Source: Mollicutes bacterium
Lineage (GTDB): Bacteria > Bacillota_I > Bacilli_A > RF39 > UBA660
Assembly: GCA_012837765.1 (NCBI GenBank)
Contig: DUQO01000035.1
Location: 1 to 52,844 of the forward strand
Direction of reading: 5' to 3'
Length of the DNA: 52,844 nucleotides
Shown here: piece after piece, positions 18,545-23,845 of the stretch
How the letters are laid out: each line of letters opens with the position of its first letter
How positions within the stretch are numbered: position 1 is the first letter of the stretch
The notes under the pieces: generated by a model
Seen by the model: the letters and a program-made list of their open reading frames with translations, nothing else
Told to the model about the DNA's origin: nothing
Database searches by the model: none
Position numbers and translations under genes: made by a program

Positions 18545-18572
18545 AACCAAAGCATATGCTTTGGTTTTTATT
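18543..18572. terminator. Bidirectional terminator between helD and asnB
   Basis: A near-perfect palindrome with arms of 11 bp (AAACCAAAGC / GCTTTGGTTT) around 18543-18568 with T-runs on both strands. Confidence 0.8.
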
Positions 18573-20382
18573 TAAAATACTCATTATACCATGTTAAAAA
18601 GGTATATATTGTCCATATCTTTCGACTATTGTCTTTCTTATTGTTTATGTGGTCATCTAATAATTTTAAAGTTTCTCGTGTGTTGAAAAATTTGTTTCCT
18701 CTTAAAAAAGACTTCTTTATTAGATTATATGTATCTTCTTCTTTAATCCATTCTCTAATAGGTACTGGAAAACCAAGCTTCTTTTTATTCGCTACCTCAT
18801 CATTTATTAGTTCATTAGCAACTAAACGATATGCATATTTAGTAGTTTTATTAGTAACCTTATATTTAGTGGGCATTCTTCTTCCTAAATTTATTACATT
18901 TTTATCTAAAAATGGCAATCTAACTTCTAGCGAATTGGCCATACTCATTTTATCAGCTTTAAGTAAAATATCATCTACTAACCAAAAATTAAAGTCAATA
19001 TATTGCATTTTGGTTACATCATCTAAATTTTTCGCTTTATCATAATATGGTTTAGTTATTTCTTTATAATCTTTTGCTCTTGTCTTAAAATTCAATAGTT
19101 TTTTTCGTTCTTTAGTATCAAAAATGAAAGCGTTACCCACATATCTTTCTTCTAATTTTCTTCCTCTTCTTACAATAAAATTTATCCCCCTTACTTTTGG
19201 TAAGCAAGATGCAACTTTACTAATAAAACGTCTTATGAAGAAAGGTATCTTATTATACCAAGATATAGAAAGAGGTTCTTGATAAATGTTATAGCCACCA
19301 AATATTTCATCTGCCCCTTCACCTGAAAAACAAACTTTAACATGTTTTGATGCAATGTTAGCAGCAAAATATAAGGCAATAGCAGCTGGATCAGCTAATG
19401 GTTCATCCATATAATATTGAATTGTAGGAAACTTTTTAAAATACTCTTCTTTCGAGATTATTTTGTTTACGTTCTCTATTTTGTTTTCTGAAGAAAAATC
19501 CTTGGCATAATCAATTTCACTATATTTTTTGTTTTCAAAACCAACGGTAAAGCTTTTTTTAACTTTACTTGCTTTTATTAAGTATGAAGAATCAACGCCA
19601 CTAGATAAAAAACCACCTGTTTTAACCTTACTTGTTTTATGCGCTTTAATCGAATTTGCTAACACTTTATTAATTTCATTTTTCCAATAATCAAGTGTTT
19701 GATTATCATCAATATCAAATGAAAATTCATAGTATTTTTTTATTTCTATTTCTTTTCCTTTATAAATCAAATAATGTCCTGGTGGTAATTTAAAGACATT
19801 TTTAAAAAATGTTTCTGGTCCTTTTGAATATTGAAAAGTTAAATAATTTTCTAATGCCCTTTTATTTAACTCCTTTCTGAATTCAGGATGTGGTAAAAAG
19901 GCTTTAATTTCTGAAGCAAACATGAATGTTTTATTCATCAAAGTATAGTATAAAGGCTTTATCCCATAAAAATCTCTTGCTCCAAACACTTCCTTTTTGT
20001 TTGAATCATAGATTACAAAAGCAAACATTCCTCTCAATTTATTAAGTATATCAACACCATATTCTTCATAACCATGTAATACAACTTCAACATCAGAATC
20101 GGTGTTAAAAGTATGACCTTTCTTTATCAATTGCTTTCTTAAATCTTTGTAATTATATATTCTTCCATCGAATGTAATGATAAGTGTTTTATCTTCGTTA
20201 TACATTGGCTGATTATCATTAGATAGATCATTGATTTTAAGCAAACGAAAACCTAAGGCAATATCATCATCAACATGATACCCTTCTGAATCTGGTCCTC
20301 GATGTTTTATTTTATTACTCATCTTTTTAATAATTGTTTTTTTGTTTTTCTTATTTGAAATAAATCCTACAAATCCACACAT
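18568..20382 (-). CDS. asnB: Glutamine-dependent asparagine synthetase-like amidotransferase
   Basis: A 604-residue protein with an N-terminal class II glutaminase domain (Cys2 in MCGFVGF is the nucleophile; RHGPDSEGYH and ARDFYGIKPL follow) and a C-terminal ATP-pyrophosphatase synthetase domain (FLSSGVDSSYL, GFENKKYSEIDYA, FSGEGADEIFGGY). It either makes asparagine from aspartate or amidates a carboxylate elsewhere. It starts 2 bp after the murE stop codon, so the two are co-transcribed. In several Bacillota an AsnB-like enzyme amidates the diaminopimelate of peptidoglycan, which is a serious alternative here. The domain call is sure; the substrate is not. Confidence 0.93.
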   Translation of the reverse strand: MCGFVGFISNKKNKKTIIKKMSNKIKHRGPDSEGYHVDDDIALGFRLLKINDLSNDNQPMYNEDKTLIITFDGRIYNYKDLRKQLIKKGHTFNTDSDVEVVLHGYEEYGVDILNKLRGMFAFVIYDSNKKEVFGARDFYGIKPLYYTLMNKTFMFASEIKAFLPHPEFRKELNKRALENYLTFQYSKGPETFFKNVFKLPPGHYLIYKGKEIEIKKYYEFSFDIDDNQTLDYWKNEINKVLANSIKAHKTSKVKTGGFLSSGVDSSYLIKASKVKKSFTVGFENKKYSEIDYAKDFSSENKIENVNKIISKEEYFKKFPTIQYYMDEPLADPAAIALYFAANIASKHVKVCFSGEGADEIFGGYNIYQEPLSISWYNKIPFFIRRFISKVASCLPKVRGINFIVRRGRKLEERYVGNAFIFDTKERKKLLNFKTRAKDYKEITKPYYDKAKNLDDVTKMQYIDFNFWLVDDILLKADKMSMANSLEVRLPFLDKNVINLGRRMPTKYKVTNKTTKYAYRLVANELINDEVANKKKLGFPVPIREWIKEEDTYNLIKKSFLRGNKFFNTRETLKLLDDHINNKKDNSRKIWTIYTFLTWYNEYFK

Positions 20383-20384
20383 TT

Positions 20385-21758
20385 TTAAACCTCTTGTTTC
20401 TTTTCAATATATTTTTTTACATGTTCTCTATCATCATGAAACATTTTTTCTTTACCAATGATTTGATAATTTTCATGTCCTTTTCCTAATATTAATAAGA
20501 TGTCTTCTCCATCTAACATATCGACACCTTTTTCAATAGCTCTTTTTCTATCATGAATTATCTCATAATTATCAGTTTTTAAACCACTAACAATATCATT
20601 CATAATTTGTTTTTCATCTTCTGTTCTAGGATTATCATTAGTAAAAATAACATAATCACTTAATTCTGTAGCGATAGCTCCCATTATCGGTCTTTTCATT
20701 CTATCACGGTCACCGCCACACCCAACAATGGTAATAATACGATCCTTTTTGTAACTATTGACACCATTTAAAACATTAGATACAGCATCTGGTGTATGAG
20801 CATAATCGACAAAGATCATTGAATTTTTATATTTTATACCATCCATTCTTCCAGGAGGAGAAGTTATAAAATCATTCTTTTTTGTAATCTCTTCAATACT
20901 ATAACCCATTTTATTAGCAATTATTAAACAGACTAAATAATTGTATATGTTATATTTACCTACTAACTTAGTCGTTATATGAAACGTTTGATCATTTACT
21001 TTTAAATCAAATGTCGTTTTATTTATTTCTAGTTTATAATCTAATATTTTATAATCCGATTCATTACTAAATCCATATATGACATTCTCATTATCTAAAA
21101 GAAAATGTTTATAATTATCATCATCACCATTAACTAAAACAAGTCCATTCTTCTTAACTTTTTTAAACAGTTTTTGTTTTGCTTTCATATAGTTATTAAG
21201 CGTCTTATGATAATCTAAATGATCTTGTGTTAAATTAGTAAAAACAGCATAATCATATGTTATTCCTTCTACTCTTCCATAAGAAAGAGCATGACTACTA
21301 ACTTCCATTACTATTACTTCAACGTTTTTTTCTTTACATCTTAAAAACATCTCATACAAATCTAGTATTTCAGGCGTTGTATTTTGAAGCGTTTCTATCT
21401 CATCTTCAATGTAAAAGCCTATCGTTCCTATGTACGCTGTTTTTTTACCTAATAAATTTAATAATTTATATATAAGATAACAACTTGTGGTTTTCCCATT
21501 AGTTCCTGTAATTCCTATAAAAGTGATGTCTTTTAAAACATCACTATACTTTTCTTTCAAATACTTTGTTAAATATTCTCTTGTGTCCTTAACTATAAGG
21601 GTCGGAACTTCATATTGACCTGTCTCAGCAACAATCATACTTGCTCCATTTTCAATAGCTTGTTTGATATAAGAATGTCCATCACTATTAACACCACGCA
21701 TGGCGACAAAGGTATCACCTTTAACAACTTTTCTCGAGTCTACTTTTATATTCATCAT
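20385..21758 (-). CDS. murE: UDP-MurNAc-L-Ala-D-Glu: meso-diaminopimelate ligase
   Basis: A 457-residue Mur ligase that adds the third residue of the peptidoglycan stem peptide in the cytosol. The P-loop is TGTNGKTT (84-91); EVSSHAL, TNLTQDHLDYH, HTPDAV and GKGHE are present. DNPR at residues 375-378 is the motif of meso-diaminopimelate-specific MurE; lysine enzymes carry a different one. The N-terminus starts almost directly at DSRKVVKGDTFVA, missing about 20 residues that usually come before. GAGGAGAGT precedes the ATG, so the short start seems real. First gene of a pair with asnB. Confidence 0.93.
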   Translation of the reverse strand: MMNIKVDSRKVVKGDTFVAMRGVNSDGHSYIKQAIENGASMIVAETGQYEVPTLIVKDTREYLTKYLKEKYSDVLKDITFIGITGTNGKTTSCYLIYKLLNLLGKKTAYIGTIGFYIEDEIETLQNTTPEILDLYEMFLRCKEKNVEVIVMEVSSHALSYGRVEGITYDYAVFTNLTQDHLDYHKTLNNYMKAKQKLFKKVKKNGLVLVNGDDDNYKHFLLDNENVIYGFSNESDYKILDYKLEINKTTFDLKVNDQTFHITTKLVGKYNIYNYLVCLIIANKMGYSIEEITKKNDFITSPPGRMDGIKYKNSMIFVDYAHTPDAVSNVLNGVNSYKKDRIITIVGCGGDRDRMKRPIMGAIATELSDYVIFTNDNPRTEDEKQIMNDIVSGLKTDNYEIIHDRKRAIEKGVDMLDGEDILLILGKGHENYQIIGKEKMFHDDREHVKKYIEKKQEV

Positions 21759-23504: not shown

Positions 23505-23526
23505 AGACACCTCTGGTGTCTTCTTT
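23504..23526. terminator. Terminator after the SDR and the YmaF-like gene
   Basis: AAGACACC (23504-23511) pairs with GGTGTCTT (23515-23522). The opposite-strand YmaF-like gene ends at 23525, so it serves both. Confidence 0.7.
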
Positions 23527-23845
23527 ATTCTAATAAACTAGCAATTTGAAAATTATGTCTATGACCATCACTAACTGTTGTTGTACCTGCCACTAAATGT
23601 ATATGTCTATTGTTTGCAATTGGTATTTGAAGACCACTCCTTACACTAATTTGATGAATGTGTCCATCATCATAACTTGTATTACTAACTACCTCATGTA
23701 TATGTCCTCCTGGTACAGCTATCGCTTTACTATCTATTGCTGCAATACGATGATTATGATTATCATTGATAAAAGTACTTCCTAACAATTCATGAGTATG
23801 ATTAGGTGCAAATTGATTAGGTCCAACATAATGATTATTGTTCAT
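23525..23845 (-). CDS. YmaF-like His-rich repeat protein
   Basis: A 106-residue protein with at least six histidine pairs in the pattern H-x-H (HTH, HNHR, HIHEV, HIHQI, HIHLV, HRHNF) spaced about 15-20 residues apart, each after a G/D-D-G or N-N turn. This is the YmaF family, found in spore formers and annotated in Bacillus without a clear function; the repeated H-x-H pairs suggest metal binding. Upstream on the minus strand an AC-N17-AATACTATG is a poor match to sigma-K. No signal peptide. Confidence 0.75.
   Translation of the reverse strand: MNNNHYVGPNQFAPNHTHELLGSTFINDNHNHRIAAIDSKAIAVPGGHIHEVVSNTSYDDGHIHQISVRSGLQIPIANNRHIHLVAGTTTVSDGHRHNFQIASLLE

Follow-up and report, generated by a model that had tools for sequence, protein, structure and literature searches.

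A predicted wall amidotransferase without its glutamine pocket, encoded beside murE in an uncultured Mollicutes bacterium

Amidation of meso-diaminopimelate (mDAP) alters the charge of the bacterial cell wall, its sensitivity to lysozyme and its recognition by the host sensor NOD1 (PMC8554201), and telling wall amidases among so-called asparagine synthetases therefore matters for the reading of gut genomes. The AsnB of Listeria monocytogenes is a proven mDAP amidase (PMC8554201). For AsnB1, the mDAP amidotransferase of Lactobacillus plantarum, a gene location beside murE has been reported (Bernard et al., 2011, cited in PMC4155827), and in Lactococcus lactis, AsnH acts with AslA and RacD in amidation of the D-aspartate bridge, a system for which an aslA-racD gene arrangement has been published (PMC4155827). 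The locus described here lies in a stretch of 52,844 nucleotides, the window. Like L. plantarum, as far as PMC4155827 relates its case, it has an AsnB-type enzyme beside a murE predicted to add mDAP, and the same product is predicted; going by that account, the pairing is not new in kind. The likeness to AsnB1 is one of gene pairing, and there are differences: the window genome lacks the DAP genes that were tested for, and the window AsnB lacks a glutamine pocket. Enzyme type and gene pairing are thus both familiar; what sets the locus apart is that the glutamine site has been lost, which is unusual, and that one residue is a candidate determinant of specificity.

Both genes are on the minus strand. 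The first, murE (21758-20385, 457 aa), is annotated as an mDAP-type UDP-MurNAc-Ala-Glu:2,6-diaminopimelate ligase on the strength of its match to NF001126, the NCBIfam model for 2,6-diaminopimelate ligase (525 bits, cut-off 373), of PDB matches to MurE structures and of its motifs, which are DNPR (residues 375-378, at 20636-20625) and GKGHENY. Only 2 bases separate its stop codon from the ATG of asnB (20382-18568, 604 aa), which matches the NCBIfam asparagine synthase model TIGR01536 (470 bits, cut-off 267), and AGAGGT, a ribosome-binding-like sequence ahead of asnB, overlaps the 3' end of murE. Because a promoter-like site is found ahead of murE (21830-21802, minus strand; TTTACA-17-TATAAT with TG before the -10, by consensus match only, 11/12) and a stem resembling an intrinsic terminator past asnB (18568-18543, minus strand; 11 pairs, likewise a consensus match only), the two genes likely form a two-gene operon. 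An earlier note on this DNA had described a murE with DNPR that is followed 2 bp later by asnB in one operon; coordinates, NCBIfam matches and motif confirm the first part, and the operon is made likely by the 2-base gap, the promoter-like site, the terminator-like stem and a gene order that is kept in a second genome of the genus. Elsewhere in the window, 23525-23845 encodes a histidine-rich protein of 106 aa with repeated H-x-H motifs (e.g. GHIH, HNHR).

An AsnB-like gene of some kind occurs in 43 of 117 relatives. The genome with the retained order, G001, belongs to the window genus and has murE then asnB, as in the window. In G069, G014, G043 and G026 the two genes are found in the opposite order or up to 2.7 kb apart, and in other family members as well as in more distant bacteria AsnB adjoins a DNxR MurE in reverse order. 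Judging by the order kept in G001 and by this recurrent, if reversed, adjacency, the murE-asnB arrangement is more than chance. In many relatives the gene immediately upstream of asnB encodes an LtaS-like protein of the sulfatase family (L040 6604-8547 and some ten comparable loci) and often follows a Tex gene; this adjacency hints that wall amidation is connected with teichoic-acid-like polymers.

Is the window AsnB a wall enzyme at all? In a 55-row tree it falls inside a 45-row wall group together with Listeria AsnB and an LtsA-like protein of Tsukamurella (support 94/83), far from E. coli AsnB, the asparagine synthetase B; C. glutamicum LtsA, L. plantarum AsnB1 and L. lactis AsnH are absent from the trees, and the AsnH group is represented by L. 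crispatus and L. curvatus. A B. subtilis AsnB sequence, one row of the first tree only, had 64% identity to Listeria AsnB against a published 68%, and no conclusion here depends on it. When the acceptor-loop columns were left out, a tree of 124 rows likewise placed the window AsnB in a MurE/LtaS-linked group. The nearest named relatives are labelled 'uncultured Bacilli', and no solved wall AsnB was among the matches of a PDB search.

The residues around the active site agree with this placement. In human asparagine synthetase, Arg-403 contacts beta-aspartyl-AMP (PMC11615228), and R387 is the E. coli equivalent by alignment. This position is never Arg in 123 wall-type rows and is Lys in 108 of them, including the window AsnB, where K475 (codon 18958..18960, minus strand) replaces the contacting Arg, the equivalence again being one by alignment. 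Listeria AsnB, which shares 44% identity with the window AsnB over the full length as well as the wall group, also lacks the Asp-binding Arg, and the acceptor loops of the two, DDPLADPAAI and DEPLADPAAI, are one residue apart; the Listeria gene, however, adjoins a metK-like gene instead of murE. E. coli AsnB belongs to the same two-domain family (30% identity), but is distant in the tree, has R387 in place of Lys and differs in its acceptor loop. Compared with it, the window AsnB also has a long insert between SGEGADE and KADKM, as do other long AsnBs of unknown function.

A true asparagine synthetase, located next to murE by happenstance and supplying asparagine for protein synthesis, would account for the above-cut-off TIGR01536 match, and it would suit a genome with an asparaginyl-tRNA synthetase in which asnB is the only PF00733 gene found (1.0 Mb, 94%-complete). 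GatB is also present. Most members of the family have asparaginyl-tRNA synthetase, but no more than about 27 of the 70 encode a wall-type AsnB; the others obtain asparagine without it, and AsnB is therefore not the asparagine route of the family as a whole. As the clade with Listeria wall AsnB, the missing Asp-binding Arg and the recurrence of the murE linkage also speak against asparagine supply, we regard this explanation as improbable. A wall amidotransferase is largely supported over it by the phylogeny, the missing Arg, the Listeria-like DEPxxDP loop, the recurrent linkage to DNxR MurE and the fact that most relatives with an asparaginyl-tRNA synthetase lack AsnB. This speaks for the proposal of the earlier note that this copy amidates the wall; the phylogeny and the search for a further asn gene, which it had named as checks, turned out as described above.

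Which wall residue would be amidated is a separate question. The wall group of the 55-row tree contains two sister subclades, that of the window with 22 rows and another with 16 rows, whose genes mostly adjoin a racemase gene, either alanine-racemase-like or for Asp racemase, together with one for an ATP-grasp ligase. In the acceptor loop before SGEGADE, 21 of the 22 window-subclade rows have Asp at the sixth position (DEPxxD, hereafter D-type), as does the Listeria group, and all 16 rows of the sister subclade have Asn there (DEPxxN, N-type). The window AsnB is of the D-type (D331, codon 19390..19392, minus strand), also by its group in the 124-row tree, and stands beside a DNPR MurE. The ATP-grasp ligase of the N-type loci has no Pfam or PDB match and is related to the 'carboxylate-amine ligase' that L. 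curvatus encodes beside an amino acid racemase, a layout that agrees with the published aslA-racD arrangement (PMC4155827); from its relatives in lactobacilli and from the gene neighbourhood it is probably a D-Asp ligase.

The residue co-varies with the genes around it, and so separates MurE-linked from D-Asp-ligase-linked relatives. Among 22 adjacent same-strand AsnB-MurE pairs, 12/12 D-type copies stand beside a D-N-x-R MurE and 10/10 N-type copies beside a MurE without the motif. At 79 further loci, the D-Asp ligase lies within 5 kb of 15/27 N-type copies versus 1/52 D-type copies. In the 70-genome family it is present in 11/11 genomes with an N-type copy versus 6/59 without one, and in none of the 16 that have only the window's subclade; five genomes carry one AsnB copy of each subclade. 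A D-N-x-R MurE is found in all 17 window-subclade genomes with a readable MurE versus 24 of 44 others. Of 80 named loci in a public genome collection, six D-type AsnBs, with Roseburia, Eubacterium and uncultured Bacilli among them, have MurE nearby. These counts reflect few independent events, and their p-values overstate the evidence, as the 124-row tree without loop columns implies only some three changes between D and N; an independent-pairs test was underpowered at 2-3 pairs. In known MurE structures the Asn and Arg of DNPR contact the second carboxylate of mDAP, but Arg put into S. aureus MurE gave no mDAP activity, so DNPR alone does not fix specificity (PMC3829189). With these qualifications, this single site is a candidate predictor of the wall residue that is amidated.

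For the window AsnB the predictor points to the MurE-linked residue. An AsnH-like role, with the D-aspartate cross-bridge instead of mDAP as acceptor, deserves consideration because genes for D-Asp ligase and racemase accompany the sister subclade, giving it a gene neighbourhood like that of L. lactis AsnH, a related wall amidotransferase, and because G002, a genome of the same genus, has the D-Asp ligase/racemase arrangement. In contrast to that system, the window AsnB is D-type by its acceptor loop and adjoins a MurE with DNPR, and the D-Asp ligase, present in 17 of 117 relatives, has no match at 1e-20 in the window genome. A cross-bridge role is thus quite unlikely here, about as much so as asparagine supply. 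In G002 itself, one row of genes (L060) comprises an Alr-like racemase, a D-Asp-ligase-like ATP-grasp protein, an N-type AsnB, S21 and an EDPR MurE, and the window genus seems to have two wall chemotypes.

The second peculiarity of the window AsnB concerns its N-terminal glutaminase domain (GATase_7, 19894..20382, minus strand). Glutamine is recognized in human asparagine synthetase by Arg-48, Asn-74, Gly-75, Glu-76 and Asp-96 (PMC6748925). In E. coli AsnB numbering, R49 and N74 are invariant in the 120 wall-type rows from outside the genus, and G75, E76 and D98 are nearly so. At these five positions the window AsnB has L, D, G, R and D, i.e. R49L, N74D and E76R (window residues 47, 72 and 74) with G75 and D98 retained; the corresponding residues are H, D, G, E and C in G001, and G, D, A, T and N in G002. 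Cys1 is kept in all three. The window AsnB accordingly does not have the full set of Cys1 and R49/N74/G75/E76/D98 of a glutamine-dependent Ntn amidotransferase, and it differs from Listeria AsnB, which keeps R49 and N74. Changes at R49 and N74 are confined to the genus, where they affect 3/3 genomes and, since the G002 copy belongs to the sister subclade, both subclades. While the wall amidase of the earlier note is supported, this loss is a feature that was missing from it, as are the absent DAP genes and the second MurE described below.

Pocket loss could be a sign that AsnB is decaying in the genus and has no remaining function, the more so as conserved columns are also fewer in the N-terminal half of the G001 and G002 proteins. 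Yet the 604-aa frame is open, the C-terminal synthetase domain (PF00733, 18586..19674, minus strand) has an intact SGEGADE loop, and this half keeps 89-95% of conserved columns, the same degree as in relatives. The gene is present in 3/3 genus genomes examined, with operon order retained in G001, and a comparison of the window AsnB with that of G001 gives a dN/dS of about 0.1 for each half, a value obtained with saturated dS. Decay is therefore very improbable, the least probable of the explanations that we considered. Because pocket residues are lost while the synthetase half stays conserved, we infer that the window AsnB runs on ammonia; this is an argument from residues, and the continued presence of Cys1 is a counterpoint to it. 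If conserved despite a dead glutaminase, such a copy would offer a natural way to ask whether wall amidotransferases need glutamine at all.

Glutamine synthetase has no match in the window genome, and the same holds for 69 of the 70 genomes of the family; glutamine may be costly as a result. It does not suffice as a cause of pocket loss, as relatives without the enzyme keep the pocket. MurT was likewise considered, as a complement of AsnB, and rejected: G000 and G001 lack it, G002 has it, and its occurrence varies among relatives.

Operon layout, motifs, clade, co-variation and pocket loss can be read directly from the DNA, and from them we infer the substrate, the amide donor and the order of steps of a model that we hold to be probable. 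According to this model, the operon serves wall-precursor synthesis. MurE would add mDAP that the cell has imported, or a closely similar residue that shares its second carboxylate, to UDP-MurNAc-L-Ala-D-Glu. AsnB would then activate the free carboxylate of mDAP with ATP and amidate it, leaving the wall less negatively charged. Because the glutamine pocket of AsnB is broken, the nitrogen would most likely come from free ammonia or from the glutaminase of another protein, and would reach an intact synthetase site.

Import enters the model because the window genome (94%-complete) yielded no DapB, DapF or Ddh, and neither did the family except for DapF in G014 and DapB in G046, so that mDAP would have to be scavenged from outside the cell. 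A published survey of uncultured Bacilli predicts walls of mDAP type with missing precursor steps, and hence scavenging, in the orders RF39 and ML615J-28 and in some of RFN20 (PMC10868615); with 'uncultured Bacilli' as the nearest named relatives, the window genome may belong among them. Retention of a DNPR MurE despite the missing enzymes might instead mean that the third residue amidated by AsnB is an mDAP analogue made without the DAP pathway, e.g. lanthionine. The DNPR-type MurE of Fusobacterium reportedly takes meso-lanthionine. As dapF of G014 is encoded some 2.6 kb downstream of the asnB-murE pair, and G046, the genome with dapB, is a DNPR genome of the family, both point to DAP, and we consider an analogue unlikely, though slightly less so than asparagine supply or a D-aspartate bridge.

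Taken beyond the window, and tentatively, with a little less than even confidence on our part, the findings would describe a lineage of wall amidotransferases that lost the glutaminase site within one genus, in mDAP-type and D-Asp-type copies alike. Scavenged mDAP would be amidated with ammonia, free or from a partner, where no glutamine synthetase is detected, and the D/N residue would predict amidation of stem peptide versus cross-bridge. A search of open-access literature, a scope outside which most subscription papers lie, turned up neither the D/N residue nor a wall AsnB with a dead glutaminase; this is weak evidence of novelty.

The window genome encodes a second MurE (contig C52:24537-25976; locus L118 4538-5977), which has DDPR and GRGNDTF motifs and adjoins a YqeY-like gene. 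Its closest solved structure is the Lys ligase of T. maritima, and from the resemblance to T. maritima MurE it is predicted to be Lys-type, which gives this small genome two MurEs that differ in predicted specificity; a mixed or Lys-type wall, made through this DDPR-type enzyme, is therefore conceivable. In G001 and G002 an S21-like gene is also found beside the DDPR-type second MurE. Relatives (e.g. L094 65-2856, L096 84-2859 and L105 1498-4277) have tandem MurE paralogues ahead of mraY, one of the DNPR type and the other with DDPH or DDLH, often together with GKGHEEF.
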